From the NCBI RefSeq assembly GCF_014268455.2, contig NZ_CP077085.1, forward strand, positions 992,001 to 1,056,000: DNA of 64,000 nt, read 5' to 3'. The number at the start of each line of letters is the position of its first letter. Position 1 is the first letter of the stretch. The notes under the pieces were generated by a model. That model was given only the letters and a program-made list of their open reading frames with translations. It was not told where the DNA came from and searched no databases. Of this stretch, positions 34,406-56,299 are shown in pieces. Both the position numbers and the translations under genes were made by a program. Source of the DNA: Pseudomonas shahriarae (GTDB taxonomy: Bacteria; Pseudomonadota; Gammaproteobacteria; Pseudomonadales; Pseudomonadaceae).

Positions 34406-35320
34406 ATGTCAATAACACAACTTGCCGACTTGACCCAACCGCAACGCGACCGTCTCGCGTTTGTGGAGTTGAGCATACGCTTCATCGGGGAGATTCGCCG
34501 TCAGGGCTTAGTGTCGCGGTTTGGCATCCAATCTGCCGCCGCCACACGGGACTTGGCTCTGTACAAAGAGATCGCTCCCGGCAACATCGACTACGACACC
34601 AAAGCAAAGGCTTACGGTCTGGGCACGACTTTCCGGCCGGTCTTTGATTTTCCCCCAGGGCGAGTAATGTCGTGGCTGACTCAAGGTTTCGGCGACGGCG
34701 AGCCCATGCATATCAGCGCCTGGGTGATCAGCGAGCGTCCGTCTTGCCTCACCTACCCAGATCTGGATGTGCTGGCGAGCGTGACCCGGGCAATTCACCA
34801 GCAATGCCCGCTTGGCATTGAGTACCACTCCATCTCCAGTGGCCACACTGAGCGAGAGATTATCCCGTTCGCATTGATCGATAACGGCCTCCGCTGGCAC
34901 GTTCGCGCCTTCGACCGAAAATCTCAGGAGTTCCGGGATTTCGTCATAACCCGTATCAAAAGCCCTGCCGTGCTCAAGGGACTGTCGGTAGCACCGCACG
35001 AGAGAAACGACCAAGACATTCAATGGACTCGAGTCGTCGAGCTGGAGTTGGTACCACACCCGGATCAACCTCGACCAGAAATCACCGAGATGGACTACAG
35101 CATGCAGGGCGGCGTTCTGCGGATGAAGCTGCGTGCCGCAACAGCCGGATACATTCTGCGTAGATGGAGTGTGGACTGCTCTCCTGACCACAGTCTGCGT
35201 GGGCATGAGTACCGGCTCTGGCTAAAGGACCATCTGGCGCTTTATGGCGTTGCAAATGCAACGCTTGCCCCAGGTTATCGAGCCCCGACATCCCACCCAA
35301 TCGGCGGAGGGGCTGCATGA
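34406..35320 (+). CDS. WYL-domain transcriptional regulator (BrxR/CapW-like)
   Basis: 304 residues. An N-terminal winged helix (QRDRLAFVELSIRFIGEIRR followed by GLVSRFGIQSAAATRDLALY) precedes a WYL domain around LGIEYHSISSGHTEREIIPF and FALIDNGLRWHVRAFDRKS, and a C-terminal WCX-like domain. This layout and the LAFVELSIRFIG start closely match the BrxR/CapW family, repressors found at the front of BREX, CBASS and related defence operons. It opens a collinear operon, overlapping the next gene by four bases (ATGA). The palindrome at 34295 is a likely operator. The ligand is unknown. Confidence 0.85.
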   Translation: MSITQLADLTQPQRDRLAFVELSIRFIGEIRRQGLVSRFGIQSAAATRDLALYKEIAPGNIDYDTKAKAYGLGTTFRPVFDFPPGRVMSWLTQGFGDGEPMHISAWVISERPSCLTYPDLDVLASVTRAIHQQCPLGIEYHSISSGHTEREIIPFALIDNGLRWHVRAFDRKSQEFRDFVITRIKSPAVLKGLSVAPHERNDQDIQWTRVVELELVPHPDQPRPEITEMDYSMQGGVLRMKLRAATAGYILRRWSVDCSPDHSLRGHEYRLWLKDHLALYGVANATLAPGYRAPTSHPIGGGAA

Positions 35321-35715
35321 CTCGCTTTGATCTTTTAGGCGTCGTTCGGCAGGGCATGAAATCCGGCCCTGTCACACTGGACCAGTTGTGGGTGGACCAT
35401 GGCACGCAATGGCATCAGCTGGGATGGAGTCGTGCGCAGTTGAGTCTATGGCTGGCCTGTACGCCGTCCTTGCAACGCTGTGAATTGCCCAGTGGTGAAC
35501 TAGCGTGGTCTCTCAATGCTGGCCCAGGCGATGCCGCCTCCAGCCTGGCCGACGAAATGGTGGCGCTATTGCAAAAGGCCGACCGCCCCATGCCCTTGGC
35601 CCAGCTCATCAGCAAATTTTCGACAGGCTGGGTGGTCACCGAGCCGATGCTGCGCAGTGCAGCACAACAAGATGCTCGAATCGAATTAAAAGGCCCGCTA
35701 CTCAAGCTGGCTTAA
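35317..35715 (+). CDS. Small winged-helix-like protein
   Basis: 132 residues, not assigned to a family. It overlaps the WYL gene by four bases. The C-terminal half, LADEMVALLQKADRPMPLAQ followed by LISKFSTGWVVTEPMLRSAA, has the spacing of a winged helix or HTH, and the N-terminal half contains repeated Trp residues (LWVDHG, HQLGWSRAQLSLWLA). It could assist the WYL regulator or the methyltransferase that starts 24 bases later. Function unknown. Confidence 0.6.
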   Translation: MTRFDLLGVVRQGMKSGPVTLDQLWVDHGTQWHQLGWSRAQLSLWLACTPSLQRCELPSGELAWSLNAGPGDAASSLADEMVALLQKADRPMPLAQLISKFSTGWVVTEPMLRSAAQQDARIELKGPLLKLA

Positions 35716-35739
35716 CGGATACACAGGACAGAAGAACCC

Positions 35740-37845
35740 ATGGCAACCGAACAAACACTGGATCAACGCTACCAAGCCATTCGCACCAAATACAACGATT
35801 ACACCGAGCACACCCCGCTGAATAGCGATCACGATTTCGTGAAAGCAGGCTTGATCTGGGGCTCAGTGGAAGGTAATCGAACACCGTCAATCTTGTTGAT
35901 AGCTCTTGATAAAGGCCATTGGAATTATTCCAAAGAGGACGAACTTGATCTGCTTGCCTATGACCTACTTGCAAGTGTCAATGGGGACGAGTGGCCGATT
36001 TTTGCGCATCTTCAAGATGACAGTAATGTCGCTCACTTCAGTTTGTTTGGTGGCGCAGGTACCCACTCGGTCGACTCGGTGCCACCACTAGAGTTGATCA
36101 GGGAGCACAAACAGCTGGAAAAGGTCCCGACCTTCCGTTGGGCAATGAAGACCTATACCCGCCTCATGAAGGGCTTGGATAACTTCCACGAGCGTGTCTA
36201 TCAGATTGATAAAGATCGAGGTATTGGCAACAAGAACGACATCATCTCCGAAGTCTCAAAAATCCTTTTCCTTGAAACCTTTCGGGTGCGTCATGACCCA
36301 GCCCTTACGTTTAAGCACGAAGGAAAAAACCTGAGCTTTCAGGAGGTTTTCAATTATTCCTATGTCGCCAAGCATCAGGACTTGGCAGTTGAACAGATCA
36401 AATCTGCGTTTGCAGAGTTTCGTGACCATCCAGACTACGTCATAACGTTGGAGGACGGGACGCAAGAGCCAATTTTTGTTGGTAAAAACAAAGACCTGCA
36501 TCTGAGCAACTGGAAAAACTACGAAACCTTGCTGCGAGTTTTTCAAGATCTTGGCCAAGTCACTAACAACCAAGGCCAGGTCGTCAAAGAGTGTGGATCT
36601 TTGCGGGATATGCCAGGGGATCTGCTGGGGCGTGTGTTCGATGTTTTCCTACGCGCTAAATTCGAGTCGAAAGGTGGGCTGGGCCAGTACCTGACGCCTA
36701 ACCCTGTCAAGCAAGCCATGCTCGAAATAGCCATGCATGACATTGCCAATGACAACGAGATCATGGAGAGACTAACCTCCGGGCAGTTTCGCTACTGCGA
36801 CCCTACCTGCGGTTCCTATGGCTTTGGCTCTGTTGCACTCAGCCATCTCAAGAATTTGATCAGCAGGTTGGGTGGTGTTTCAGACAGTCAAAAAGATCAG
36901 ATGATCGAGGAATTGCTGGCCAACAGCTTCGTCGGTTCTGACTCAGCAGAAAACATGGTGACGCTGGCACGCGTCAATATGGCATTACAAGGCGCACCAA
37001 AAGCCAAGATTTTCTGGGCCAACTCGCTCACGACCAAGCTTCTCAAACCCAATAGCTTCGACCTGATTTGCACCAACCCACCGTTTGGCACACCAAAATT
37101 TGGCGCCAAGGAGCAGGAGGCCAAGCAGCACTATGAAGCAGAAATGGAACAGATCCTTGGTGGCTTCCGACCCGCTGAACTCGAATCCGAGTACGTTGCT
37201 TATTACGATTACATCAAAAAAACCTGGCAAGACACAGGCGGTCTCTACCTGGACAAAGATGGCAGCCCCAAGTGGCCAGGCTATCGCACCGACTTGCGCA
37301 ATTTTTCCACCGGTAAAAAGGCCGTCTACAATCTGGTCCCCACCACCAGCGGTTTGGCGCTAGGCAGCAAGCCCGATGGCAAAGGCAACTGGAAGCCGGT
37401 GGGCGCCACCATCGACCCTGCCGTGCTCTTTATCGACCGTTGTCTGCAGCTGCTACGCCCCGGTGGCCGCCTGCTAATCGTGTTGCCAGATGGTGTGCTG
37501 TGTAACTCCGGCGACCGCTATGTCCGCGAATACATCATGGGGACCAAGGACGAAAAAACTGGCCAGTTTGTGGGCGGCAAGGCCATCGTCAAAGCGGTGC
37601 TCTCCCTCCCGGCGGACACCTTCAAACTCTCCGGCACCGGTGCCAAGACCTCCGTGCTGTACCTTCAGAAACGCCACGCCAGCAAGGAGCGCCCCGAGCA
37701 GTTCCTACCTGAGCCGCAAGGCGATGTATTCATGGCGGTGGCAGAAACGCTGGGCTATGTGGTGAAGAACAATATCGAAGATTACTCTGTGGGCGTGCCA
37801 AATGACCTCGACAAGATTGTTGGCGCTTATAAGCGGGGTGAGTGA
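35740..37845 (+). CDS. Type I-like N6-adenine DNA methyltransferase (M subunit)
   Basis: 701 residues, longer than a usual HsdM (about 500). A ~270-residue N-terminal region precedes GLGQYLTPNPVKQAMLEIA and the SAM-binding motif I DPTCGSYGFGSVALSHL (about residue 356); catalytic motif IV is CTNPPFGTPKFG (about 445), giving the motif order of gamma-class enzymes. PGGRLLIVLPDGVL is the following conserved strand. It should methylate adenine, guided by the S protein whose ATG overlaps this stop (TGATG). No HsdR-like translocase lies in the operon, so the effector must be something else. Confidence 0.92.
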   Translation: MATEQTLDQRYQAIRTKYNDYTEHTPLNSDHDFVKAGLIWGSVEGNRTPSILLIALDKGHWNYSKEDELDLLAYDLLASVNGDEWPIFAHLQDDSNVAHFSLFGGAGTHSVDSVPPLELIREHKQLEKVPTFRWAMKTYTRLMKGLDNFHERVYQIDKDRGIGNKNDIISEVSKILFLETFRVRHDPALTFKHEGKNLSFQEVFNYSYVAKHQDLAVEQIKSAFAEFRDHPDYVITLEDGTQEPIFVGKNKDLHLSNWKNYETLLRVFQDLGQVTNNQGQVVKECGSLRDMPGDLLGRVFDVFLRAKFESKGGLGQYLTPNPVKQAMLEIAMHDIANDNEIMERLTSGQFRYCDPTCGSYGFGSVALSHLKNLISRLGGVSDSQKDQMIEELLANSFVGSDSAENMVTLARVNMALQGAPKAKIFWANSLTTKLLKPNSFDLICTNPPFGTPKFGAKEQEAKQHYEAEMEQILGGFRPAELESEYVAYYDYIKKTWQDTGGLYLDKDGSPKWPGYRTDLRNFSTGKKAVYNLVPTTSGLALGSKPDGKGNWKPVGATIDPAVLFIDRCLQLLRPGGRLLIVLPDGVLCNSGDRYVREYIMGTKDEKTGQFVGGKAIVKAVLSLPADTFKLSGTGAKTSVLYLQKRHASKERPEQFLPEPQGDVFMAVAETLGYVVKNNIEDYSVGVPNDLDKIVGAYKRGE

Positions 37846-39359
37846 TGTCTGTTGATACCTTGCGAGAAACCTTTCATATAAACCGGGTTGCTCCAGACAA
37901 GATCCAGGATTTTCTGACGGCACAAACATATCGCCCAGGAATCACGGAGGCTAAAGAAAAGATAAAATCACTACCCTGGGTATTCCTGCAAAGCGTTTGT
38001 AAACGACCAATCAGACAAGGTAAATCACCTTCCTACGCGGAAGATGCGGGACTACTTTGCATTAAGCCGAAGAACACCAATGAGATGATCGTTTCATTGG
38101 AGGAACTGAGTTACATCAAACAGGCGAGCAAAGACGAAGTCGCCGGACAACGGCTACAAATGGGCGATATTGTTATCACCCGATCTGGCTCAGGAACAAT
38201 TGGCCGTGCCTCAATTTTCCTGTCCGAAAAAGAGGTTTACACCAACGACCATTTGTTCATTGTCCGAACGGATGCCGTCGATAGTCATTACACTTGCGCG
38301 TTCCTCAATACCTATTGGGGGCATCGCCTTCTCGAGGCAGGCGTTTCAGGATCGACGGGGCAGCTCAATCTATCGAATGAGCACATCAAAGGTATTACGT
38401 TATACACGCCAGCTGAGCTTGCACAAAAATACATCGGGGACAAAATCCGCCAAGCGGAGCGGCTTCGGGCTTGGGCGAAGGCGCTTGAGGCGAAGTTTGA
38501 ATTAAACCTTAAGAAGGCGGTGTCAGAGGCTTTTGAGAATAAGGGGGCAGGCAAGAAGTACTCTAGAGCGCCGGTTGCCGATATTTCCTATACGCTCAAT
38601 CCAGGAGCCTTCGACGAGGAACGCCTACGGGTTCAGCATTACCTTTTGGGTCTTGGCGGGAAGCGCTTTAGCAAACTGGCGGACATTTCTGGCCCAACAT
38701 CAAGTAGTTATAAACCAGATGCGACCTACATCGGACTGGACGCAATATCATCTGCTACCTGTCAGCTCAAACCATCAACGGTGGAAAAGGCTGAAATATC
38801 GGGTACCTGCCGTTTATTGGGTGAGGGACCTGTAATTTCCAAATTACGTCCATATTTGAACAAGATTTCCTACATTCCTAAGCGCTTCGTAGGGGCTGTT
38901 GGCTCTACGGAGCTTTTATGTATTACGCCACGAGACCACTATTCGGGATGGTATCTCTACGGCGTATTAAAATCAGAGCTAGCCTTAAAGCAGCTTCGCC
39001 CATTGGCAACCGGGGCAACACATCCCCGTATTGATCAGTACGACGTGTATGACTTGGTTGTGCCCGTCTTAGACGAGCAAGAAACTCTTGGGCAAGCGCT
39101 CGAAATAGCCCAATCAGCCTATTTCTTAGCTAGTGAACTTACAGTTGCCGCCAAACTTCTCGTCGAAGCCCTGATCGAAGGCCAACTCACCGAAGCTGAA
39201 TTGCTCACCGCCGAAAAGGCACTGCAAGCGGGCAACGACCGACTGGATCGCTTTATTCTGAGCCGATTGAATACTAATGGTATCGATGGCCAAGGGTCTA
39301 CACTGTTTAACGATCTGGACGAGCTGTACTGCTTGCTCGTGCAAGCTGAGGGGGATTGA
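37845..39359 (+). CDS. Type I-like specificity subunit (HsdS family)
   Basis: 504 residues. Two target-recognition domains are visible as repeats: a first with RLQMGDIVITRSGSGTIGRA then FIVRTDAVDS and a second with EGPVISKLRPYLNKISYIP then GSTELLCITPRD. Each is followed by a helical spacer (EKYIGDKIRQAERLRAWAKALEAKF-like and EQETLGQALEIAQSAYFLA). This two-TRD plan predicts a bipartite recognition sequence. ATG at 37845 overlaps the M stop; a GTG three bases earlier is also possible. With M it should form a modification complex. The region is more AT-rich than the neighbours. Confidence 0.88.
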   Translation: MSVDTLRETFHINRVAPDKIQDFLTAQTYRPGITEAKEKIKSLPWVFLQSVCKRPIRQGKSPSYAEDAGLLCIKPKNTNEMIVSLEELSYIKQASKDEVAGQRLQMGDIVITRSGSGTIGRASIFLSEKEVYTNDHLFIVRTDAVDSHYTCAFLNTYWGHRLLEAGVSGSTGQLNLSNEHIKGITLYTPAELAQKYIGDKIRQAERLRAWAKALEAKFELNLKKAVSEAFENKGAGKKYSRAPVADISYTLNPGAFDEERLRVQHYLLGLGGKRFSKLADISGPTSSSYKPDATYIGLDAISSATCQLKPSTVEKAEISGTCRLLGEGPVISKLRPYLNKISYIPKRFVGAVGSTELLCITPRDHYSGWYLYGVLKSELALKQLRPLATGATHPRIDQYDVYDLVVPVLDEQETLGQALEIAQSAYFLASELTVAAKLLVEALIEGQLTEAELLTAEKALQAGNDRLDRFILSRLNTNGIDGQGSTLFNDLDELYCLLVQAEGD

Positions 39360-40696
39360 TGGCAAGCCCCCATGCCAGGTTAGTTGCCTTGATCCCACGT
39401 TTGCGAGCCTTGCTCACGACAGGCTTCATGGCTGCCGTTGCCAATGAGCGTGACGACTCGGCGCTGTTGAGCAACCTGGCCCATCCGCTAGCGGCGGAAG
39501 ACGCTGGCGACCAAAGCAATGGAAAGGGGATGCAGGGTCGTCTAGGGACCAGCGCAGGTTGGATCATCAGCCGGCGCCTACTGGCCGTGCGCCCTGCCTT
39601 GGCGTCTGACGCTGAGCTGCTCTGTGCCTTGTTGGCGCAGCACATCGAGCTGCGCCATGCGTGGTTGGTGATTGCCGCTGCACGCTGTAAAGAGGCGGGG
39701 CAGATGGCTAGTCAATCGGCAGCTCAGGGCAACAACACTGCACCGCTGGTCGAGTTGATATCCGGCCTGGGGCCAGCCGCTACTTGGGTGGAAGCGGCCT
39801 TGGAAAGCGCGCTACTCACTGCCAGCCCCTACGCTGCGATTGAGCGGGAATTGCTGGGCGTGGGCTTTGAGCAGGCGGCTGCAACGCCGGCACTGGTGCG
39901 GACTCTGGCTGTCGCCGCTCAGTTGGCTGCGTTCCAGGATGCGCTCCCTCCCTTGCCCAAGGTGGATGCCAGTGGCGTCGATGCGCAGCAGAACTGGGTC
40001 AAGGGAAGGCTGTTGGCTTTGCCCTTTGTGCTTGAGGCTACCACGCACGATCAAAAACCTGAAACCGCAACCACAAAGGCCGCCGAGCAAGTGCTTTTGG
40101 CGGGTGGCATTTCGCGCGTCATCATCGAAGGCCAGACCGTGATGCGCTGGGTGTTAGCCCAGCCCTGGGCGCTGCTGCTGGCCATGCTCGCCTTTGCGCA
40201 GGATGCCTGGCGGGCTGAGAGCCGTGGTGGTTTGCTGCTGGAACTACCAGCAGGCCAGAACGCATTTGCTCCCGCTGAAATTGCCGTCACGGTGATTGGC
40301 ACTGAGGGCGACGAGGTGCGCTGTGGCACACTGGCCGACCTGCTGCTGGGCATGCTGGCAAGGTTGGGAGTTGCGTGCTTTCCGCAGCAGTCCACAGCAG
40401 CAGAGTTGAATGCGCAACTTTCGCCGCTGGTGGGTTTGTTGCTCAGGTACGCGATCTGGCGTTATCAGGATGGGGCCAGTAGCCAATTGGGCCAGTACCA
40501 GATTCATCCGCAGTTCTCTGATCAGTGCTATAGCCTGCCCGCGAGCCGTGTGTTCAATCGTACCGGCAAGTTGCTATGGCAGGCCGCACGCCTGGCTGCC
40601 GAGGCACTGTATCAGGAGCACAAACAGGTCTATCAACACCGTTCCGTCCGCGAACCGGAGGCGGCGTACTTGGTTCAGGGGGAACCTATTGCATGA
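39359..40696 (+). CDS. Unknown defence-operon protein
   Basis: 445 residues, no recognised family. It is rich in Ala and Leu and probably largely helical (long runs such as LLAVRPALASDAELLCALLA and PALVRTLAVAAQLAAFQDA); no signal peptide is clear and no catalytic motif is seen. The ATG overlaps the S stop (TGATG) and its own stop overlaps the ATPase start (ATGA), so it is translationally coupled to both and is a dedicated member of the operon. Confidence 0.75.
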   Translation: MASPHARLVALIPRLRALLTTGFMAAVANERDDSALLSNLAHPLAAEDAGDQSNGKGMQGRLGTSAGWIISRRLLAVRPALASDAELLCALLAQHIELRHAWLVIAAARCKEAGQMASQSAAQGNNTAPLVELISGLGPAATWVEAALESALLTASPYAAIERELLGVGFEQAAATPALVRTLAVAAQLAAFQDALPPLPKVDASGVDAQQNWVKGRLLALPFVLEATTHDQKPETATTKAAEQVLLAGGISRVIIEGQTVMRWVLAQPWALLLAMLAFAQDAWRAESRGGLLLELPAGQNAFAPAEIAVTVIGTEGDEVRCGTLADLLLGMLARLGVACFPQQSTAAELNAQLSPLVGLLLRYAIWRYQDGASSQLGQYQIHPQFSDQCYSLPASRVFNRTGKLLWQAARLAAEALYQEHKQVYQHRSVREPEAAYLVQGEPIA

Positions 40697-43600
40697 ATAA
40701 AAACGATCAGCTTACCGCCGCCGATATTGTCGACCTGGCCCGTCTCCATAGCTGGGCAGCCACCGGTGTTTCCGATTATCCGCCGCGTGATCCCTTGGTT
40801 GGCCAGAGTCGCTTCTTCAAACGCTATCGCACCTTCATCCACACTGTGGATCAGGAGGCGGACAACTTTGCCCATGTTTTTGCGGTGGAGGCGGAATGGG
40901 GGCGCGGTAAATCGCGCCTGGGGCATGAGCTGATCGCCCAGATCAATGATTGCTCCAAAGGCTGGTTTGTGCGCGAAGACGGCGCGCAGTTGGAAGATAA
41001 AAAGCTGTTTGATCAGGCCACGCAAGATAAGTACCTGGCACTGTATATCCGCTATTCGCAAGTGGCTTCCGACTACCAGAACTCAGACAACTGGTTTGGT
41101 TTTGGGCTTTACAGGGCGCTGTTGCCGCTGGCGACCGGCAAGTTTGATGGTTCGATTCAAAGCAAGATTGCCGAGCAGGCGCTGCATCGTTTGAATCCGG
41201 CAGGCTTCGACCCGCAGCAGCTGGCGCAATGCCTGGAGTTGGATCAGGCCCATTCTGAGGAGGCACTCTACGAGGAAGAAGGCTTGGTCGTGCGCCTGGT
41301 GCAGGCTGCCTACAGCTATCTGGAAAAATTTGGCATCGGCTATGTGCTGGTAGTGCTGGACGAGCTGGAAACCGTGGCCGAGGCGGCCACCTTTGGATTG
41401 GAGCAAGACGACGCCAAGCGCCTCGATGGCCAAGCCATCCGCCTGATTGGCAAAGCCATCAAGGAGGAGGACCCGCGACGCAAGCTGCCTTGGCTGCGTT
41501 ATGTGGCTTTGTGCTCGCCCTTGCTGGGCCAGCAGTTGCGGGAGATTCAATCCGTCGCTCGCCGTTTTGAGCTGGTGGAGCTGGAGCACAACGCCTTTGC
41601 CGATGTGTCTGACTATGTGGCCCAGCTTAAGGTCGAGCGCAAGTTGGCACACGACTACCCTACAGGGCTGGTTGAAGCCGCCTATGCCATGAGCGGAGCC
41701 AACTTTGGTTGGTTCAACGTGATCATGGCCAATGTGGATGCGGTGTTGGCTCAGTACGCGGCAGTGGGTAAGCAAGTCACCGATATGGGCGTGCTGTTCG
41801 ATGCGGTGGTAGATAGCTCTGGCCGTGTCGCTGAACATGTGCTGGACAAGCACGCCATCGAGGGCATCAAGACTGGTGATCACGATCTGCGCGCCATCGC
41901 GCAGTCGTTGCTGTACGGCCAACTGCCTGTATCACTGGATGCCTCATCCGTGCGCTGCAAAGAGCTGTTGCAGCTGACCAATGAGGATGGCGAACCAGTC
42001 GCCAGCCTGTATCGCAAGATGCCTTTTGACGCGTTCCAATGCCGCCAGGCGCTGGAAGAGGCCAAGTTCAAACGAGAAAAGGACGAATGGCTGTACCCCG
42101 CTGTCGAGCAGGCACTCAGCCTCACTGCCTTGCTGCAAAACCTGCGTACCTTTGCCATCAATGAGGCCGAGAAGGATGTGCTGCTGATGCCGCTGTCGCG
42201 CGGGGAGTTCAAGCATCTATTGAGTTTGCTCTACGACCACCCTGCGGTGGAATTTGCCGCCGACGCGCTGTGGCAAAAGCTGATTGGTGGGGACCAGTTC
42301 ATTCCGAATGAAGAGGCCACGCATATTGGTCCTAGCGTGGCCATGTTGCTGCGATTGGACTTGCGCTACCGCAACCAGCAACACAATTCGATGATCTTCC
42401 GAGACCCGGCGGATGCGGCTGTGCACGAAGCCGCGGTGAAGACCTTCTTACAGGCCAGCGGCCACAACCCGGGCCTGCGCTGGACGGCACGTCTGATGGG
42501 TTTGATGCGTTTACTGGACAAGAACTGGCAGTACGCACAGACCGGCCGCTCCAACAAAGAGAATCTCTACATTCAAACTAGCCCGCGTGGGCAAGGCGCA
42601 GGTCAGCGTGGTGGCTTGTTGTATTGCGAGGGGTTGAAGCTGCACCCGGATAATCTGGCGTGGTTTGCCTGGGTGAACAACCGTGAGGAGCTTGAGCGCC
42701 TGCATCATTTGGCGGCAATGCGCCATACCGATGAAGGGCGCTTCCCGGTGATGGCTTTCACGGCTTCCACCCACTTGATGGAGCAGTACAACCGGGGCGA
42801 TGTAGAAGAAGAGCTCAAAGACGATCTATTGCTTTATTACCTGAACCCTAGCGAAGTGGACCAGTTGGAGCGCATCGGCCTGTTGGCCGAGCAGTGCAAG
42901 GGCTTGGTACTGGATGAGGCGCGACTGACCAGCAAGTTCAAGAACAAGCTCAACGCCCTGCGTGACTTTGCCTATCAAGCGATCCATCAATGGCGTGCCC
43001 GCTTGAATGAGCGCGGCTTGATTGCTTGGCCGCTCAAGCCAACCGGCAAGATCAACGCGCAAGATCGCGATCTGCTGCTGCAGTCCTGGACTTTGTTTGG
43101 GTTCAAGGAGCCGACCCTTTCTGGTCTGAATGATCTGGAAACCACGCACGGCATTGATGCCGAAGAAGTGGCATCGCTGATGCAGCGCCTGGCCTTGCCA
43201 AGCAAGCTGCTCAGCCTGGGTTTTACGAAGGATGAGCACGCAGGCTTGTTTAGCGATTTGGCCAACCCTCAGCAGGCGCAAGCCAAGTTCCCCTTCTTCT
43301 TGGCACATATAGCAAACCCTGCCAGCACACAGGAATGGACACTGGAGAAGGCCAAGCGCGACTGGTACTGGGGCTACTTGCAACATGCCAACGTAACTGC
43401 CAAGAACGTGTTCGATGACTGGATGTGGTGGTGCGGGGAGTTGCATTTGTTGCAGCTGCAAGATGCCACGGCCGCAACAGCCAAATGGGAAAGTCTGCCA
43501 CGGGCCAAGCTGGATAACGCCATCAACGAGGCGCAGAACTGGTTTAACGGCAACGGTGCTGACGGCTACAAGGCTGTGGTTGCCAAGTTGGAACGTGTTT

Positions 43601-44979
43601 TCGGCTATGACCGCATCCCTGGGCTCTTCGCACCCTTGGGCAAGTCACCCACCGGCACTGAAACGGTCGAAGCGCACGAATTGCTCAAAGCGGCCCGCTC
43701 CGCCTTTGACGCGCTGAAGCTCGGCGAAGAAGCGCTCGCTTTGCAAGGCACCGATGATTTGTCTGCTATTGCTCGCAAGATGCCCACTTTGCTTGCCGGG
43801 CGCTTTGAAGTGCTGCAGCGCGTTGCGGGTGTTAAACCGGAGCACGTGCCCGATATCACCTTGGGCAATATCAATACCCTGCGCCTCGACGATAAGAGCA
43901 AATCGCTCTATCAGCGCATCGAAAAGGCCCGGCTGTTCGCAGATTACGTGGAGAAGGCGGCATCCCAAATCAAACAAGGCATCGATCATCTGATCACCGA
44001 CATCGAAGCTGAGGCTAAGCATCTGGCTTTGTTCCCGCGTAGCTTATTCACCCTGTCGCTACAGACGGTGACCAACATTCTTGATGGGGCTTTGCAGCAA
44101 CACAACGCCAGCGGCACTGCGGCGGCAGAGGGTACTGCGAGCTCAGACACCTTGCTTCATTACCTGCGCTCACTTCAACTGGACAAGGCGGCGGATCGCC
44201 TGCGCCTGCTCGCCGAGGAAGCGGGCGTCAATATCGACAATGGAACGGCTTTGGGACTGGCCGATAACCTTGGCTGCATTGCCAGTAGCTATCGAGCGGG
44301 CAAGAAAAAATTTGTTGAGATCACCGGGTACCTCGCGGAATTGCAAACACGATGTGTAGCGGCTGCACGTGTTTTGGAGCCCATGCCAGCAGACTATGCA
44401 ACGCCAGAAAACGCCCAAGACCTTGCAACACTTGCACAAAAATTGATTTTGATTGGCGATGCGTTTGAAGACTTGGCCGAGATGGCCAAAAGTGAACGTG
44501 AGAAGTTTCGGGAGCAAGCACGCAAGGGTCAGTTCAGCACCATCCGTGATGTTCCGGATCGTTTATTGAATCCAATTCAAACTCAATTGAATGTTATTGG
44601 CGGTGCCATCACTAAGATTGAAAACACGATCCTGCTGCATCGCGAAACCTTGGTTAGTCAGACCAATGAGCGCTTCCTTCCAGTGCTGATGCCATTGTTC
44701 AGTGCTTGCAACGAAGCTGCACCAGCGGCAATTAGCCTGAGCTACGTATCTCCACTTTCCTTGCATGACCTGCATGTGACGATAGATGTGCAGCAATCGC
44801 AGTGGGAAGCCAAAGCGACTCAGTTGCTAAGCGGGACAGGCCTTGACTTCGCGGGCTGGAAAGATTTGGTGAAGGCGATAGCCGAGGGCAAAAGCCCGGT
44901 ACTGTCACAAGTCGCTCAAGAGGCTTTGGTAGCCAAGGGCATCCTGAAAATGAAGCTCTATTTCGGGGGAAATTCGTGA
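40693..44979 (+). CDS. Large P-loop ATPase (1428 aa), BrxC/PglY-like in layout
   Basis: 1428 residues. Near the N-terminus is a Walker A AEWGRGKSRLGHEL (about 67-80) and a Walker B YVLVVLDELETVAEA (about 217-231); a single ATPase domain occupies the first ~450 residues. A very long, mainly helical C-terminus follows (low content of motifs, stretches such as IEKARLFADYVEKAASQIKQ). Size, N-terminal P-loop and placement after a modification gene resemble BREX BrxC/PglY, but this is a layout analogy, not a proven homology. It starts with ATGA overlap and overlaps the next gene by four bases. Probably the motor or scaffold of the system. Confidence 0.85.
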   Translation: MNKNDQLTAADIVDLARLHSWAATGVSDYPPRDPLVGQSRFFKRYRTFIHTVDQEADNFAHVFAVEAEWGRGKSRLGHELIAQINDCSKGWFVREDGAQLEDKKLFDQATQDKYLALYIRYSQVASDYQNSDNWFGFGLYRALLPLATGKFDGSIQSKIAEQALHRLNPAGFDPQQLAQCLELDQAHSEEALYEEEGLVVRLVQAAYSYLEKFGIGYVLVVLDELETVAEAATFGLEQDDAKRLDGQAIRLIGKAIKEEDPRRKLPWLRYVALCSPLLGQQLREIQSVARRFELVELEHNAFADVSDYVAQLKVERKLAHDYPTGLVEAAYAMSGANFGWFNVIMANVDAVLAQYAAVGKQVTDMGVLFDAVVDSSGRVAEHVLDKHAIEGIKTGDHDLRAIAQSLLYGQLPVSLDASSVRCKELLQLTNEDGEPVASLYRKMPFDAFQCRQALEEAKFKREKDEWLYPAVEQALSLTALLQNLRTFAINEAEKDVLLMPLSRGEFKHLLSLLYDHPAVEFAADALWQKLIGGDQFIPNEEATHIGPSVAMLLRLDLRYRNQQHNSMIFRDPADAAVHEAAVKTFLQASGHNPGLRWTARLMGLMRLLDKNWQYAQTGRSNKENLYIQTSPRGQGAGQRGGLLYCEGLKLHPDNLAWFAWVNNREELERLHHLAAMRHTDEGRFPVMAFTASTHLMEQYNRGDVEEELKDDLLLYYLNPSEVDQLERIGLLAEQCKGLVLDEARLTSKFKNKLNALRDFAYQAIHQWRARLNERGLIAWPLKPTGKINAQDRDLLLQSWTLFGFKEPTLSGLNDLETTHGIDAEEVASLMQRLALPSKLLSLGFTKDEHAGLFSDLANPQQAQAKFPFFLAHIANPASTQEWTLEKAKRDWYWGYLQHANVTAKNVFDDWMWWCGELHLLQLQDATAATAKWESLPRAKLDNAINEAQNWFNGNGADGYKAVVAKLERVFGYDRIPGLFAPLGKSPTGTETVEAHELLKAARSAFDALKLGEEALALQGTDDLSAIARKMPTLLAGRFEVLQRVAGVKPEHVPDITLGNINTLRLDDKSKSLYQRIEKARLFADYVEKAASQIKQGIDHLITDIEAEAKHLALFPRSLFTLSLQTVTNILDGALQQHNASGTAAAEGTASSDTLLHYLRSLQLDKAADRLRLLAEEAGVNIDNGTALGLADNLGCIASSYRAGKKKFVEITGYLAELQTRCVAAARVLEPMPADYATPENAQDLATLAQKLILIGDAFEDLAEMAKSEREKFREQARKGQFSTIRDVPDRLLNPIQTQLNVIGGAITKIENTILLHRETLVSQTNERFLPVLMPLFSACNEAAPAAISLSYVSPLSLHDLHVTIDVQQSQWEAKATQLLSGTGLDFAGWKDLVKAIAEGKSPVLSQVAQEALVAKGILKMKLYFGGNS

Positions 44980-45803
44980 AGCTTTATTTGACTCCGGAAT
45001 TGCAGGCACACCGCAGAGGGCGTTTCTTGGCCAGCTTGCTGGGAATCTCCCAGTCGTCTCAGCTTGGCTTACCGAAGACCGGTTTTGTGTTGATGACAGG
45101 CGAAGCTTTGCAAGCATCAAGAGAGACTCAGGAGGAGTGTGCTGCCTGGGTACGCCAACCCGGTTGTTCGTTGCTGCTGCTCCCGCCATACAAGGAAGGG
45201 AGTATTTTTCATTTTCTGGACTGGGTGGTTGAGTTGGCACGGTCCAATTCACTAGCGGCCAAACAGGCATCGCTTACGAGCATGCTAGAGGGCGAGGTGG
45301 CGTTCAATCTGCGCGGGATAGATGGCGCTTTTACAGGGGAGATGACGCCGGGGGAGCTGACCGGTCATACACGCTATTGGAAGGCGCATTCAAATAGCGG
45401 CCTGATCGCTGCCACAACGCTACCGCTTTGGTCCATCAGTTTGTTGGATCAGGCGTCGTTGGTTCATGACTTTCTGGCCAATATTGAGCGGCATTGTGGG
45501 CTGCCCTCTGTTAGTGCCGAAGAAATAAAGCCCCAAGGAACTGATGCGATACCCCCGGAGGATGTCACCGTGTTGGTATGCTGCTACGGATTCAATGTCG
45601 CGACAGCCGAGGGCGTGCTAAGCAGGTTGAAGGCATATGCCGTGCCGCTGTTGAACTTGGCCAGCTTCGATTTTCCGGAAAGCATGGTTCGCCTTAAAAA
45701 TGCCGGGCTGATCAATGACCATGGATTAACTGAGCAGGGATTGGTCTATCTGATGGGGTGTAGATACTGGGCATTTGCCGAAAGCTTGAGAAATGAGGCC
45801 TAG
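44976..45803 (+). CDS. Unknown operon protein with winged-helix-like C-terminus
   Basis: 275 residues beginning with GTG at 44976, which overlaps the ATPase stop. The start LYLTPELQAHRRGRFLASLL and the middle show no known motif. The last 50 residues (MVRLKNAGLINDHGLTEQGL) have the spacing of a winged helix (Leu-x-x-Ala-Gly-Leu-Ile, then Leu-Thr-x-x-Gly). It could be a nucleic-acid-binding or adaptor subunit for the ATPase. Function unknown. Confidence 0.7.
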   Translation: MKLYLTPELQAHRRGRFLASLLGISQSSQLGLPKTGFVLMTGEALQASRETQEECAAWVRQPGCSLLLLPPYKEGSIFHFLDWVVELARSNSLAAKQASLTSMLEGEVAFNLRGIDGAFTGEMTPGELTGHTRYWKAHSNSGLIAATTLPLWSISLLDQASLVHDFLANIERHCGLPSVSAEEIKPQGTDAIPPEDVTVLVCCYGFNVATAEGVLSRLKAYAVPLLNLASFDFPESMVRLKNAGLINDHGLTEQGLVYLMGCRYWAFAESLRNEA

Positions 45804-45806
45804 CCA

Positions 45807-46949
45807 ATGAAAGCAAAAACTCTTGCGCAAGCATTGGCTATTGATAGTCAGCTGGGATTGCCGGGCAGTGCTGGGCGTTTGCTCAAACAGATTCGTGATA
45901 TTGAACATGTGGCTCCCATGTTTCGGGATGCCGGCTTAATTAAGGGGGTCAAGCGGCCAGCTGTCGTCAACCTCACAGTTTCAGGCATTGCGAGTCACTC
46001 ATGCATTCACCGTGCTCTGGGGGGATTTATCTACGCATCCGCAGCTGTGCGGACAGATCTCACCATCCAGGACAATAAGGTCGGCACAGCTGGGTCCGAT
46101 TCAGTATCAGAGTTAGACGACATAGATTTCGAAGCTCAGAGAAAGCGCTTGGACTTGGTGGAGATGAGGCACTGCTATGCCCTTGTCGAGCGACTGTTAA
46201 AACAGGGTGGTTTTGCCAACTTGATTTTGATCGACACCCCGTTGTTCATTGACCGGGAAATGGTGCCTCTGAAGCGGAATGCACGGCACTGGGCCGAGTT
46301 TGAAAAGACCAGAGATGTAATTGAACAATTTTGGCAGAAAAACCGGAAAGCTTTATTTCCATGGAATCCGGAAGGTCCTGTGCTCGTTAGCATTCTGGCT
46401 GAGCGATTCTCTGCCATTGTCAGTATCGCTCGTCAGGACTTACGAACTGAAGACGGCCGCAAGCACATTTTGATCAACGATGGTTTTGCACCGGAATCGG
46501 CCGCCATGCTCGAAGGCCTAGAGGCTCGACTGAGCGGCATTGGTGATACGCGTTTTATTAATGGAATATTGGGCAACTTCACCCGAACTATTGCTTTTCG
46601 GATGACTGAAAATCGCTCTCGGATGGAACCTGCTAGTGAAGTAAGCCAAGGCGTTATCGGCTTTCACTTCCGCAGTGCGCGTGCAAGTCAAATAAAGATG
46701 GCTCAATTGGCCGGCGAAGAGTCGGACTGGGATTCCGCCTTGTTAGATACTGTGGCATCTCGGCTGATGATTTTGGACATGCAAAGTCAGAAAAAAGCCA
46801 TGCCACTACCGCAGCTACTCAGTCGGCAGCAACTCAATATTCTCGAAAAGTTCTCTGCCTACTACCGGCAGGGGCTAAATGAAGCATTGCGGAGTAACGA
46901 CGTGGAAAGCACGTGGTTATCCGGTCTCGATGAGGGGTTTGAATCATGA
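45807..46949 (+). CDS. Unknown protein, possible NurA-like partner of the HerA ATPase
   Basis: 380 residues, placed directly before the HerA-family gene, which it overlaps as ATGA. HerA ATPases commonly pair with NurA-type nucleases, and this protein has a NurA-like size and spread of acidic residues (ANLILIDTPLFIDREMVPLK, SVSELDDIDFEAQRKRLDLV). No convincing NurA catalytic block can be pointed out, so the call is by context. It starts four bases after the previous stop. Confidence 0.5.
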   Translation: MKAKTLAQALAIDSQLGLPGSAGRLLKQIRDIEHVAPMFRDAGLIKGVKRPAVVNLTVSGIASHSCIHRALGGFIYASAAVRTDLTIQDNKVGTAGSDSVSELDDIDFEAQRKRLDLVEMRHCYALVERLLKQGGFANLILIDTPLFIDREMVPLKRNARHWAEFEKTRDVIEQFWQKNRKALFPWNPEGPVLVSILAERFSAIVSIARQDLRTEDGRKHILINDGFAPESAAMLEGLEARLSGIGDTRFINGILGNFTRTIAFRMTENRSRMEPASEVSQGVIGFHFRSARASQIKMAQLAGEESDWDSALLDTVASRLMILDMQSQKKAMPLPQLLSRQQLNILEKFSAYYRQGLNEALRSNDVESTWLSGLDEGFES

Positions 46950-48631
46950 AACACAAGGTACTTGGAAAGCTGGTCGGTAACACCGGCGACGCGGCACAGC
47001 TGACTATGGTGGTTCAGAATTCCTTTTCCGTTCGTCGTGGAGAGTTTGTCCGCATCATGCATCAGGAGCGCGCGGATGAAAGCGTGGTGCCGGTGCTTGG
47101 ACGAGTCACCAGGATTTCCCGGACCAATATACTGTTCAACGCTGGATTTGGTGATGGAGTAACTGAACTTGAGTTGCTCCCCGGGGCCAGTGTCACAGGC
47201 GAGAACCTATACGCAAATGTCGAACTGGTCGGCTATCGCGATCCGGTTTCTCGCCAGATAAAAATTCCACGCCGCCCGCTAGACCCAGGTGCTGCCGTTG
47301 AAACAGTGGATTTCCAATTTCTAAGCGACTTCTACGAGTTTAACGAACACACCAGTTTGCACCTGGGTAATCTGGTTGGCTATGAGCGCGGCGATAACAC
47401 GGTGCCGGTCTTTTTAGACGTAAACAAACTGGTCACTGAGCATATGGCCGTACTCGCGATGACGGGATCGGGAAAGTCCTACACCGTTGGCCGCATCATT
47501 GAACGATTGGTAGCGTTGAACAACGGAACCGTAGTTGTTTTTGATCCGCATGGTGAGTATGGAAAGGCCTTGGCGAAGGGGCAATTGAATTTCTCGGGAG
47601 GTCTAGCGGAGAGCGAAGACGGACGCGATCGTGCGGCACTACCCAAAATTCGCGATACCTTGGAACGATTGCAGGAAGCCGGTGCAGGCATCCATGTTTA
47701 CACGCCACAAAATGAATCGTTCAAACACAAGTACGCAGGCAAAAACGTCCAGCTTGCGCTGCAGTTCGATCACTTTGAAATGGATGATGTGGCAGAAATT
47801 CTGCCCGGGCTGACCGAACCCCAACAGAGGGTGCTTGATGTTGCGTTGCGCTATTGGCGGACAGCTGACAAGACCGAGCCGCGGGACATCAATCGCCTTC
47901 GACATCTTCTCGGAGATGGTATCGAAGAGTTGCGTGAGTGGGATGACCTTTCCGAGGCAGAAGGCAAAGCATTGAATGGACGCAGTGCCGCTGTGACATC
48001 GATGAAGCTGTCGCGGGTGCTCAACGAAGCGCAAAGCTTTTACTCTGCTGCCATGTCCGCTCCAACCGACATCTACAAAATGATCGGGCGTCCTTCGAAT
48101 AAGCAAGGGCGACTCGTTGTGATCGATCTGCAAGGACTGAGTGATACGGCCAAACAGGTAATCTGCGCACTGCTTTCCAGTGAAATCTTGCGCGCAGCCT
48201 CCAGCAAAACAGATCCTCTACGCCCTTGTTTCCTGGTTTATGAGGAAGGACATAATTTCGCGCCAGCGGGTGGAAATGCCGTCAGCCATCGAATCATCAA
48301 GAAAATTGCCGGCGAAGGTCGCAAGTTCGGTGTTGGTTTCGCCATCGTTAGCCAGCGCCCATCGAAGCTCGATGCTGACGTGACGTCGCAGTGCAATACC
48401 TTGATCACCATGCGTCTGAAGAACCCGGATGACCAGCGATTTATTGCAAAAGCATCTGACATGGTAAGTAAGGCCGACCTGGATGAGTTGCCAAACTTAT
48501 CAACGGGTGAGGCCTTGGTCTGTGGCCGATCTATTCCGGCATCTCTACTAGTTAAAGTTGGTGGCAAGGCACTGATACACGGTGGTGAGTCTCCTGAAGT
48601 GCTGCGCGTTTGGGGGAGTTTTGGTGACTGA
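46946..48631 (+). CDS. HerA-family (DUF87) hexameric ATPase
   Basis: 561 residues. The first ~160 form a HAS-barrel-like beta domain. Walker A is LAMTGSGKSYTVGRII (about 170-185) and VVVFDPHGEYGKALAKG is the following conserved strand. The Walker B region FLVYEEGHNFAPAG (about 430) has EEGH, close to the (D/E)EAH(N) consensus, and SQRPSKLDADVTSQCNTLIT (about 470) is the HerA sensor/arginine region. HerA proteins form DNA-pumping hexamers that assist end resection or defence nucleases. Both its ends overlap the neighbours, so it is made as part of the complex. Confidence 0.92.
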   Translation: MKHKVLGKLVGNTGDAAQLTMVVQNSFSVRRGEFVRIMHQERADESVVPVLGRVTRISRTNILFNAGFGDGVTELELLPGASVTGENLYANVELVGYRDPVSRQIKIPRRPLDPGAAVETVDFQFLSDFYEFNEHTSLHLGNLVGYERGDNTVPVFLDVNKLVTEHMAVLAMTGSGKSYTVGRIIERLVALNNGTVVVFDPHGEYGKALAKGQLNFSGGLAESEDGRDRAALPKIRDTLERLQEAGAGIHVYTPQNESFKHKYAGKNVQLALQFDHFEMDDVAEILPGLTEPQQRVLDVALRYWRTADKTEPRDINRLRHLLGDGIEELREWDDLSEAEGKALNGRSAAVTSMKLSRVLNEAQSFYSAAMSAPTDIYKMIGRPSNKQGRLVVIDLQGLSDTAKQVICALLSSEILRAASSKTDPLRPCFLVYEEGHNFAPAGGNAVSHRIIKKIAGEGRKFGVGFAIVSQRPSKLDADVTSQCNTLITMRLKNPDDQRFIAKASDMVSKADLDELPNLSTGEALVCGRSIPASLLVKVGGKALIHGGESPEVLRVWGSFGD

Positions 48632-49202
48632 CCTTCCAGAGCGCATTTGTTCTGCAATGTCCACTCTGGAGTTTGTCGATCGCAGCTATCCCATGCTGTC
48701 GGGTTGGGGCGTTCGTGACGAGGATGTAATGGTGCACAGCTTGGGTTGCAGTGCCTGGAATGAGCTTGGATCTAAGCTTGGCTTTATGGCGGTGTCGGAA
48801 TGTCCGGTGCCGATGACGCATGGGGCAGACATTCGGGCTGACTCAACTTGGTTTAGTCGAACGCAACGCACACCTGATGTCTTGATTGAGTTTGAACGGT
48901 TTGATGGTACCGATCGGGGACAAAAGAAGATTGACGAGAAGCTTTGTAATTTACTGGAGGCCTCGATGAGATGGGGTGATGCCCCTTCTGTGCTAATCCT
49001 TTCGGCATGGAACAAAGGAGTTGTTTCCGCGCCAAATAAAGAAGTGTTTGCACAGCGATGTCGGCAAGGTTTCAAATCGTCGGTTGGTGCGCAGGTGCCG
49101 CCACTTAGAAATACAGCAGTTCTTTTCAGCCGGTTTATTTTTGAGATTGAGTGCAGTGGAACGCTGCTTCTAAAACAGATGCGCTGTGAGAGGTTGTTGT
49201 GA
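48624..49202 (+). CDS. Small protein, possible PD-(D/E)xK-type nuclease
   Basis: 192 residues from a GTG at 48624, preceded by GGGGGAG and overlapping the HerA stop by eight bases. The middle segment ADIRADSTWFSRTQRTPDVL then IEFERFDGTD and KKIDEKL has the D...E-x-E pattern of a restriction-endonuclease-like core, but this is a loose match. No other domain is recognised. Its position between the HerA ATPase and the kinase suggests an effector or adaptor role. Confidence 0.6.
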   Translation: MTDLPERICSAMSTLEFVDRSYPMLSGWGVRDEDVMVHSLGCSAWNELGSKLGFMAVSECPVPMTHGADIRADSTWFSRTQRTPDVLIEFERFDGTDRGQKKIDEKLCNLLEASMRWGDAPSVLILSAWNKGVVSAPNKEVFAQRCRQGFKSSVGAQVPPLRNTAVLFSRFIFEIECSGTLLLKQMRCERLL

Positions 49203-50671
49203 ATATAAAATCCGCACACTTTCTGCCGGGAACTAATAAGCGCTTAGGGGATAGGTATCTCTTGCTTGAATGCCTCGGTGACGGCAGTCATGGTTGGGTT
49301 TGGCGGGCGGAGAGGCTATCGGACAGTACCATCGTCGCAGTGAAGATTCCTAAAGATCTGACAAAGGATGATCGTCTGCTGGCTGAAGGGAAAGAGTTAC
49401 TAGCAATAGATCCACATCCCAATATTGTTCGGATTTGCGATATGGGGAGGATTCCACCGGAGAACGAATGGTTCTTCATCGAAATGGAATACTTCCCGAG
49501 CCAAAGTCTTGCCCAAAAGCTTGAGCAGAGAAGTCAGAATTTTGGAAACACGTTTGAGCGCCTGTTCGACATCTACGAGCAGGTGCTCGACGCTGTTGGT
49601 TTTTTGGCGACCTTGACGACACCTATCTCACACGGCGATATCAAGCCGCACAATATTCTCGTGGGTGCGGGAGATTTGGTGAAGTTGACTGATTTCGGGA
49701 GCTCCGCGCTGCCCGAAGAAATTTATGTTCGAACTAGAGAGAACGGTGGCACTGTTCTGTACGCTGCGCCAGAGTTTTCCGACAGTGTTTCACGTAAGGG
49801 GACTTTTGATGACTTGCTAAGAGGCGACATCTACAGTCTCGGCGTTCTCTTGTACCAACTGCTAACGGGACAGCTCCCTCACGACACGCCATCTCAAGTG
49901 CGTCGTCATGCGCCATTTAAGCGCCCCAGCGAAATCAACGCCAACATCGTACCCATGGTTGACGCCTTAATCCTTAGGTGCATGGAAAAGGTCCCCTCCG
50001 CTCGATATCACGATATTGCTTCGCTTCGCAGTGCTTTTGAGCTGGCGAGGCAGCAACAATTAGACGCGCCTCAGTATTCCATAACGCCATTTGGCGGGCA
50101 GGCTTCGGTTGATTGGTCGACGGCAGTTGTCGAGTCTCTGGAGACAAAAGACTACCTAAAGGCGGCAAGAGTTGCGGAAGAGGAGTTCGCCCGTACCCAC
50201 GATTCCGCTGCGTTGCTGCAACAGCTTAATGCCCTCTATCGCGCAAACAGGCTTTTCGAGTTTGAAGAAGTATTCCATCGAGAGTACAAAGGCGACTTGC
50301 ATGACGACGATCAAAAGCTGATCCGGTTGCTTGGCATTAAGGCATTCCTTACGCTTCGTAAAACAAATTTTGCGAAAGGTCTCATTCAAGATGCCGCGAG
50401 ACAGGATGGAGAATCGTTAGAGCTTGATTTTTTGCGTGCGACCTTGTTTGGCTTGGAGGCTAATTTTTCCGAGGCGCGCGAAGCGCTTGAGAGAATCAAT
50501 AGAAAGTGCCCAAGTAAGCCTCACGTTTTAATCCGCTTGATCCAGGTTTGTGAGCAAGTGCGTGACTACCCCGCCGCGGTAGGGTATTTAAAGCACGCAT
50601 TGCGCATATCAAATAACTCTGTCGAGTTGGTGGCGAAACGGCAGCGTTACCAGGGGCTAGGACTATGGTGA
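49199..50671 (+). CDS. Serine/threonine protein kinase with C-terminal helical repeats
   Basis: 490 residues. The Hanks-type kinase fills about 20-280: P-loop LGDGSHGWVWRAE (26-38), Lys in TIVAVKIPKD (K49), catalytic HGDIKPHNIL (Asp147), DFG in LTDFGSSA (165-167) and an APEF segment in the activation loop. The C-terminal ~170 residues are TPR-like helices (AARVAEEEFARTH, LIRLIQVCEQVRDYPAAVGY). GTG at 49199 overlaps the previous stop. No membrane segment, so it is a cytosolic signal or effector kinase; PglW plays such a role in Pgl/BREX2 systems. It ends the operon. Confidence 0.93.
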   Translation: MNIKSAHFLPGTNKRLGDRYLLLECLGDGSHGWVWRAERLSDSTIVAVKIPKDLTKDDRLLAEGKELLAIDPHPNIVRICDMGRIPPENEWFFIEMEYFPSQSLAQKLEQRSQNFGNTFERLFDIYEQVLDAVGFLATLTTPISHGDIKPHNILVGAGDLVKLTDFGSSALPEEIYVRTRENGGTVLYAAPEFSDSVSRKGTFDDLLRGDIYSLGVLLYQLLTGQLPHDTPSQVRRHAPFKRPSEINANIVPMVDALILRCMEKVPSARYHDIASLRSAFELARQQQLDAPQYSITPFGGQASVDWSTAVVESLETKDYLKAARVAEEEFARTHDSAALLQQLNALYRANRLFEFEEVFHREYKGDLHDDDQKLIRLLGIKAFLTLRKTNFAKGLIQDAARQDGESLELDFLRATLFGLEANFSEAREALERINRKCPSKPHVLIRLIQVCEQVRDYPAAVGYLKHALRISNNSVELVAKRQRYQGLGLW

Positions 50672-50897: not shown

Positions 50898-51509
50898 CTA
50901 ATCGAACAGCAGCGCCTCGGTTAGCCCCTTGTCAGGGTCCGGTTCATCGAAGAGGTGGGCCATGCCGACGAGGCTGCGAGCCAGCTTTTCGTATGCAACC
51001 CATTGAGTGCGCAGGTGGTCGAACACCTGGTTAAACAGCCTTATGGTTTCAACTTCCAGGTAGTCTTCATTGAACGCGAACACCTCATCGAATCGGGCGA
51101 ACTCCAACTGTTCGTCTAGCATTTCTTGCTGTTCGAGCAATGAGTCATAACCCTCGCGGCACTCTTCGCGCATTTCGTTGGCGAATTCGATAAAGTCCGC
51201 GTCGGTCTCGTCGAAGTGCTCCCGCAGGGAGGCGGGGATGTCGTTCAGGCTGGTAAAACGCTTGCGTCCTCCGTCCCGGCGTATCTCGCCAATCAGAGCA
51301 TCCAGCTCATCGAAATCGCCGTAATCCGACAGCCAGCCGCACAAGGTATTGGCATGCAGGGCTTCGGAGACGCACTCACTGATCTCTTTCATGCTGTCCG
51401 CCAGGTAAGTGCGGCGGAAGAAAGGCAGCAATAGCGCGTGCAAATCGTCGAACGCTTGTTTACGTGCTTGGTAGCGTTTGGCGATGAGGTTGGCTTCTCG
51501 GGCGTTCAT
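50898..51509 (-). CDS. Hypothetical protein, Mrr cassette
   Basis: 203 residues, not assigned. Strongly acidic and predicted helical throughout (SMKEISECVSEALHANTLCG, DETDADFIEFANEMREECRE, EVFAFNEDYLEVETIRLFNQ); no membrane or catalytic motif. It is 108 bases downstream of an Mrr-type nuclease on the same strand and probably shares its transcript. Both lie between two fragments of an older integrase, so they look like a small inserted cassette. It could be an inhibitor or partner of the nuclease (inference). Confidence 0.65.
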   Translation of the reverse strand: MNAREANLIAKRYQARKQAFDDLHALLLPFFRRTYLADSMKEISECVSEALHANTLCGWLSDYGDFDELDALIGEIRRDGGRKRFTSLNDIPASLREHFDETDADFIEFANEMREECREGYDSLLEQQEMLDEQLEFARFDEVFAFNEDYLEVETIRLFNQVFDHLRTQWVAYEKLARSLVGMAHLFDEPDPDKGLTEALLFD

Positions 51510-56112: not shown

Positions 56113-56136
56113 GAGATTTTCCTCAGGCACTGATTT

Positions 56137-56288: not shown

Positions 56289-56299
56289 AGATGATGAAG

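Follow-up and report, generated by a model that had tools for sequence, protein, structure and literature searches.

The question raised by this locus is whether the eleven genes at 34406-50671 of a 64,000-nucleotide stretch of the Pseudomonas shahriarae genome (contig NZ_CP077085.1, positions 992,001 to 1,056,000; hereafter the window) form a single unit, and whether such a unit corresponds to any defence system that already has a name. A preliminary description of the sequence had proposed a candidate undescribed defence system, a reading supported by the conservation of the genes as a unit and by the absence of a matching named system, while the role in defence and the marking of self are what we infer. 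All eleven open reading frames (ORFs) of the collinear run are present on the plus strand, eight of the ten junctions being overlaps of 1 to 8 bases and the remaining two gaps of 24 and 3 bases. Starts were corrected from homologue lengths, alignments and junction bases for S (37845), gene 5 (39359), the ATPase (40693) and gene 10 (about 48624), and the size of 1428 amino acids given earlier for the ATPase agrees with the lengths of its homologues. The conserved system proper consists of the ten genes of the operon 35317-50671 (gene 2 to gene 11), which probably encode one conserved, unnamed, methylation-marked defence system with a HerA-NurA effector; within the searches made, it is a widespread and undescribed candidate for methylation-marked defence with an unusual HerA-NurA arm.

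Conserved gene order, divergent S alleles and island location

The ATPase encoded by gene 6 was aligned with 14 homologues and then served as query for retrieving 69 loci, with each species represented by a single genome; 69 is a lower bound, since the scan needs exact short patterns. The ATPase of locus L049, which stops at the given coordinates, was left out of one alignment. Seven genes were taken as the core, encoding the type I-like methyltransferase (M), the specificity subunit (S), the ATPase, the NurA-like protein, HerA, the gene 10 protein and the kinase. By tblastn, these seven were detected in the same order in 54 of the 69 loci and all ten genes in order in 31, a conservation of gene order far beyond chance; the neighbours therefore do not occur scattered independently across genomes, and the search for the same arrangement elsewhere that had been recommended for this locus returned one conserved order. 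Ten of the 15 other loci are cut off within the block by the end of their contig (L002, L008, L015, L020, L037, L041, L056, L058, L063 and L070). L024 ends in gene 7, and the 3.1 kb ahead of its gene 5 show no S; an internal loss has removed M, S and part of the ATPase from L057; and no S, HerA, gene 10 or kinase was detected in L067 by tblastn. The gene encoding S is placed between those of the NurA-like protein and HerA in L068, L069 and L070; loci L067-L070 represent a divergent subtype.

Judged by record title, the loci belong to Gamma-, Beta-, Alpha- and Deltaproteobacteria as well as to Planctomycetota, Acidobacteria, Cyanobacteria, Verrucomicrobia, a Fibrobacter metagenome-assembled genome and Firmicutes. 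In the Firmicutes loci genes 2, 5 and 7 were missed by tblastn, though profile comparison with hhalign matched them to the proteins in the same positions (97.4%, 97.9% and 94.8%, respectively), and two gene-5-like proteins are present there. The most conserved component is HerA, with 61-97% identity across loci, and the identity of the kinase drops faster than that of HerA across phyla.

Regarding the head of the operon, the gene preceding gene 2 was classified in the 60 loci holding M. It encodes an S-like protein at 33 of them (eight from Firmicutes and 25 others), McrC at four and a WYL-domain protein at four, with 19 unassigned. On this classification the WYL gene of the window (34406-35320) is one of several plug-ins of a head slot and not part of the core; the earlier assignment of a WYL domain stands (PF13280, 47 bits), while membership of the conserved operon does not, and the protein is best regarded as an accessory, probable transcriptional regulator. 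The S-like protein of the head slot, of 450-500 amino acids (L009, L010, L021, L025, L032-L054 and others), matches S by hhalign at 99.4% over 431 columns, and its Firmicutes form matches Pfam Methylase_S with 39 bits, with no Pfam match in the two proteobacterial or planctomycete forms scanned. It is 65-71% identical between L009, L010 and L050, from which it may have a role other than variable target recognition.

The S subunit itself diverges between otherwise near-identical operons. Between Escherichia coli EC93 and a fox isolate, gene 2, M, the ATPase, gene 7, HerA, gene 10 and the kinase are 100% identical (rounded), the NurA-like protein 99% and gene 5 95%, against 41% for S; across 12 close pairs, S identity ranges from 32 to 71% versus 75 to 100% for the ATPase (two gene 10 values of 25% in this comparison were caused by short extracted ORFs, of 8 amino acids in L050 and 16 in L054). 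Similarly, the M-S DNA of EC93 has a match in 263 E. coli genomes, extending over 80% of its length in just 100. The same pattern of divergence is known for HsdS and suggests selection for a changing DNA mark.

The system is rare within the lineage of the window and more readily found in E. coli. Among 398 genomes of the phylum the ATPase was detected in the genome of the window only, and in none of the 10 other genomes listed for the genus. The block from ATPase to kinase of Pantoea agglomerans (L018) has a match in 255 of 5426 complete E. coli genomes (4.7%), 209 of the 255 being matched over at least 80% of its length, with 96.6-96.7% identity among the 20 matches listed; 257 of the places are chromosomal and one is on a plasmid. 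A search of E. coli DNA with the window operon itself gave no match, the copies in that species presumably having diverged too far. No ATPase match and, at E 1e-50, no HerA match was detected in plasmids, nor was any HerA match in phages at E 1e-20.

All five E. coli copies inspected (L090-L094, including that of strain W) lie in integrase islands. The four besides W stand beside an integrase with a tRNA-Leu gene at that end and are preceded by McrB and McrC, and in all five McrC overlaps gene 2 by four bases (L090, 9277-11003; L091, L092, L093 and L094), so that translation of McrBC and of the system may be coupled. In E. coli W (L094; NC_017664.1, 4774006-4795329) the annotation gives McrBC, the integrase and all ten genes of the operon as intact; all ten match those of the window by tblastn, from 28% (S) to 87% (HerA), and six of the ten products carry the name 'hypothetical protein'. 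Together with the operon and McrBC, E. coli W carries a phosphorothioate-dependent restriction enzyme that is likewise annotated as intact. In E. coli N96 (L093, 6096-8980) the annotation splits S into two pieces and marks a frameshift in gene 5, the other genes bearing no such flag.

In the window, the island adjoins the transfer-messenger RNA (tmRNA) gene at 56300-56693, with the tag ANDETYGEYALAA, next to a tyrosine integrase at 54856-56130 that was identified by reading its translation (together 54856-56693, minus strand). The G+C content is 51-59% over 22-56 kb versus 61-65% over 0-20 kb, and the whole appears to be a defence island inserted at the 3' end of ssrA.

Predicted proteins of the operon

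M (35740-37845) and S (37845-39359) are the only operon proteins with full-length, high-scoring PADLOC matches, as generic type I subunits. M, a type I-like N6-adenine DNA methyltransferase, matches MTase_I (PDLC03023) with 1200 bits over residues 4-701 and PF02384 (N6-MTase) with 81 bits and has both motifs, NPPF and DPTCG; S matches Specificity_I (PDLC03120) with 422 bits and PF01420 (Methylase_S) with 27 bits. The Pfam scan took in ten of the eleven operon proteins, the kinase being left out, and PADLOC matches were considered as the best 25 of 59 for S and the best 25 of 33 for the kinase. The domains initially named for the WYL protein, M, S and HerA were all recovered by Pfam. The PADLOC matches of HerA, the kinase and the WYL protein are to generic domains, while for genes 2, 5, 6, 7 and 10 no match to a curated family model exceeded its cut-off, and gene 8 could be assigned by structure alone.

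Gene 9 (46946-48631) encodes a HerA-family DNA translocase, with 154 bits to PF01935 (DUF87; cut-off 23), 188 bits to PADLOC HerA and 192 bits to NCBIfam HerA, under the equivalog cut-off of 970. Gene 8 (45807-46949) encodes a protein with a predicted NurA fold: its AlphaFold2 model (predicted local distance difference test score, pLDDT, 84.8) has NurA 2ygk as the top match by both Foldseek and VIA, and six of the 120 homologues listed bear the UniRef name 'NurA domain-containing'. The tentative call of a NurA-like protein made earlier is borne out as regards the fold, while the active site is perhaps altered, with no conserved acidic residue in the first strand. With the Pfam NurA model, no match was obtained in 299 genomes, that of the window included, and a single one among 30 NurA-like members (E 0.038). 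At two other positions, Asp84 and Asp143, D or E is kept in 29 of 30 rows in each case, the one row without both being L070.

Gene 10 (48624-49202) encodes a protein of 192 amino acids in which H38, G41, G49, E59, P61, D73, W76, E89, E91, R92, K106 and W129 do not vary among the 32 rows aligned; 13 further gene 10 ORFs, short as extracted, are not among the rows of the alignments. The E-D-ExE-K spacing suggests a nuclease of the PD-(D/E)xK type. One of the 120 homologues listed has a UniRef name beginning 'Restriction endonuclea', and homologues 96% identical bear P. aeruginosa names.

The 1428-amino-acid P-loop ATPase of gene 6 (40693-44979), which has a long C-terminal part, carries a Walker A-like AEWGRGKS and a Walker B VVLDELE; a Walker A pattern with an obligatory G at its first position matched neither this ATPase nor HerA, both of which read AxxxxGKS. 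No significant family match was detected for the ATPase in PADLOC, Pfam or NCBIfam, nor for gene 5 (39359-40696, about 445 amino acids, no known domain) in these three and PDB, nor for gene 7 (44976-45803, 275 amino acids, unknown fold) in these three and a PDB profile search. When the profiles of genes 5, 7, 8 and 10 and of the ATPase were run against PDB, nothing or noise came back, and haemagglutinin and SEC2 entries among the matches were read as coiled-coil artefacts. The small, winged-helix-like protein of gene 2 (35317-35715) is conserved from Proteobacteria to Firmicutes and reaches 21.9 bits to WH_Egal (cut-off 27).

Gene 11 (49199-50671) encodes the Ser/Thr kinase, as originally called, with VAVK, HGDxKxxN and DFG motifs all present. 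It scores 154 bits to a PASTA-kinase model (cut-off 450) and 139 bits to PADLOC mad6, and models of PglW match in the kinase domain only, with 58 and 59 bits (PADLOC PglW 57.6; NCBIfam cut-off 990). Weak matches to tetratricopeptide repeats in its C-terminal part are below cut-off.

Known systems, proposed mechanism and rival explanations

The operon shares with MADS, the published methylation-associated defence system, an M, an S, a kinase domain and a HerA-like domain (hhalign 99.8%, 99.9%, 99.7% and 85%, respectively), so that it could be a divergent branch of that system. A true MADS locus of the same genus (L087; three of 249 genus genomes match mad7) was used as positive control and clears the NCBIfam thresholds of MAD2 through MAD8, whereas the window proteins fall below those for MAD2 (117 of 720 bits), MAD5 (124 of 400) and MAD6 (115 of 460) and none matched MAD3, MAD4, MAD7 or MAD8; on these grounds membership of MADS was rejected. 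For genes 2, 5, 6, 7, 8 and 10, hhalign gave no MADS protein a probability above 15%, a comparison of limited sensitivity because the MADS profiles held one or two sequences. Gene order and protein sizes also differ: the kinase has 490 amino acids here versus about 1400 in MADS, HerA is free here while in MADS it is the C-terminus of a protein of 1850 amino acids, the NurA-fold protein, gene 10 and the 1428-amino-acid ATPase have no counterpart found in MADS, and MAD3, MAD4 and MAD7 have none in the operon. A MADS branch is, on balance, very unlikely. As probes, the MAD6 kinase model performed poorly (matches in 226 of 274 genomes, none of them passing the cut-off), the mad4 model matched none of four chosen genomes, and the mad7 model gave two weak matches in 369 genomes of the class. 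A further locus, L089 (G839, 10481-18505), has 260 bits to mad7 (true MADS loci 858-878) and a 1704-amino-acid protein with a weak HerA-like match, and is possibly a MADS variant.

With BREX/Pgl, taken to include the BREX-related systems of PMC12839542, the operon has in common a methylase, a giant P-loop ATPase and, for Pgl, a kinase, and WYL regulators occur in some BREX systems, as the title of PMC9122589 indicates. Unlike BREX, it has a separate S subunit. In agreement with the absences noted at the outset, no PglZ was among the PADLOC and NCBIfam matches listed for the 14 window proteins scanned (for S and the kinase, the best 25 in PADLOC), no BrxL, BrxA or BrxB among the PADLOC and NCBIfam matches listed, no DISARM component (DrmA helicase, DrmB) among the PADLOC matches listed for the window proteins, and no HsdR for the eleven genes among the PADLOC, Pfam and NCBIfam matches listed. 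Sequence methods gave no BrxC/PglY or DUF499 match for the gene 6 ATPase in Pfam, PADLOC or NCBIfam at the thresholds used, and these libraries presumably hold BrxC/DUF499 models. Type I restriction-modification (HsdRMS) likewise combines an M with an S subunit whose alleles diverge, whereas here the place of HsdR is taken by a HerA-NurA pair together with six further genes. The HerA ATPase and predicted NurA fold are both found in the HerA-NurA end-resection complex, from which the present pair differs in that the first-strand aspartate is not conserved, the Pfam NurA model is unmatched and the genes are set in a methylase operon. TdpAB, a HerA/NurA-like pair (PDB 8wfd) that we take to be linked to phosphorothioate marking, differs in that N6-methylation by M and S is predicted here, with many more subunits. 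The comparison with PADLOC and NCBIfam and the MADS control thus yielded no named system accounting for all genes in the same order. In the literature searched, mostly outside subscription journals, no paper was recognisable as describing this gene set; the term 'NurA' is absent from the texts of PMC12839542 and PMC10853773 on HerA/FtsK 'capture' systems, and the gene set is not described in the parts of them available.

In the mechanism that we propose, M and S would, very probably, methylate the sites specified by S and so mark self DNA. The effector would be other than HsdR: a HerA hexamer capped by a dimer of the NurA-fold protein would engage and translocate unmarked DNA, which would be cut by the gene 10 nuclease and/or the NurA-like site, where Asp84, on the adjacent strand, perhaps takes the part of the usual first aspartate, which is replaced. 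The 1428-amino-acid ATPase with genes 5 and 7 could act as a sensor or assembly platform and the kinase might license or switch the complex, with WYL, McrBC or the second S-like protein as putative lineage-specific additions at the operon head. What the analysis establishes directly is the joint conservation of the genes, their domains, the predicted NurA fold, the divergence of S and the position in islands, and the steps of the mechanism go beyond these. A bolder version, tentative and rather doubtful as a whole, would be a widespread new restriction architecture in which an S-guided methylase, a HerA-NurA pump with its catalytic aspartate moved to Asp84 and a small nuclease are gated by the ATPase and kinase, the head slot serving as a plug-in site for WYL, McrBC or a second specificity subunit. 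If true, the proposed mechanism would be another way of linking methyl marks to a response against foreign DNA and would give a HerA-NurA machine a part in the defence of common bacteria, and a ten-gene defence system would have been overlooked although a match to it occurs in roughly one in twenty complete E. coli genomes. Among these is E. coli W, with the whole set, which a passage of PMC3032704 describes as restriction-minus and which makes the system testable at once.

Several observations weigh against methylation-marked defence with a HerA-NurA effector. In the strand of the NurA-like protein (56-70) that we take to hold the first catalytic aspartate motif of NurA, no column is acidic in more than three of 30 rows and the window protein has no acidic residue, so that the protein could be inactive. 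L070 is the sole row with an aspartate at position 62 of this strand while lacking Asp84 and Asp143, and its loss of both can therefore not simply be taken for joint inactivation, which speaks against a catalytic reading of these two residues. Regarding gene 10, no Pfam or PDB match and no nuclease family by sequence was found, so that the small nuclease-like protein of the preliminary description is upheld by its invariant motif and not by any family. The parts assigned to the kinase and the ATPase are drawn by analogy. No convincing attachment-site repeat of the ssrA region was found in the window, and the G+C content right of 56 kb is 59-61%, a weak contrast with that flank. The flanks of other loci gave matches to DarTG, a CBASS cyclase, PprPIWI, DrmC and PtuA among 121 proteins scanned, without a control set (121 of 146 ORFs, picked by hand before the results; families from the best 25 of 97 matched).

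The first of these points would fit a non-cleaving exclusion of the BREX/Pgl type, in which M and S mark self, the NurA-like protein is a dead cap, and the ATPase and kinase block phage replication or trigger arrest. A giant P-loop ATPase with a kinase recalls BrxC/PglY and PglW, and the kinase domain does score against PglW; yet the E, D, ExE and K set of gene 10 is invariant, Asp84 and Asp143 are kept in all rows except L070, and neither PglZ nor BrxC is among the matches listed, leaving such exclusion unlikely, if less so than the other rivals. The same gene 10 residues, which look catalytic and point to a DNA-cutting arm, argue against abortive infection with the kinase as toxic effector and the DNA-handling genes as sensor. 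Kinases serve as effectors in some defence systems and the catalytic motifs of this one are intact, but its faster loss of identity across phyla than that of HerA also counts against such a part, and we consider it highly improbable. Finally, a HerA-NurA pair carries out DNA end resection in archaea and in Deinococcus, according to PMC9960219, and the operon might serve DNA repair or end resection with an orphan type I methylase and no defence role. Against a repair operon stand its detection in one genome of the 398 sampled, with none of the 10 listed genomes of the genus sharing it, the match in 4.7% of E. coli genomes, the integrase islands around the five copies inspected and the divergence of S, and of all the explanations weighed this is the least probable, by our estimate extremely so.

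Neighbouring genes

Upstream of the operon and divergent to it, on the minus strand, lies TmtA of the Tiamat defence system (29397-34208; PADLOC PDLC03969, 2356 bits, nearly full length), just after which a protein of 578 amino acids (27692-29428, minus strand) reads, in translation, like a NERD nuclease domain plus helicase. On the other side a Type IV methyl-directed restriction enzyme was detected at 51618-52610 on the minus strand (PADLOC mREase_IV, 396 bits), and an unknown protein of 203 amino acids is encoded at 50898-51509, between the operon and this enzyme.

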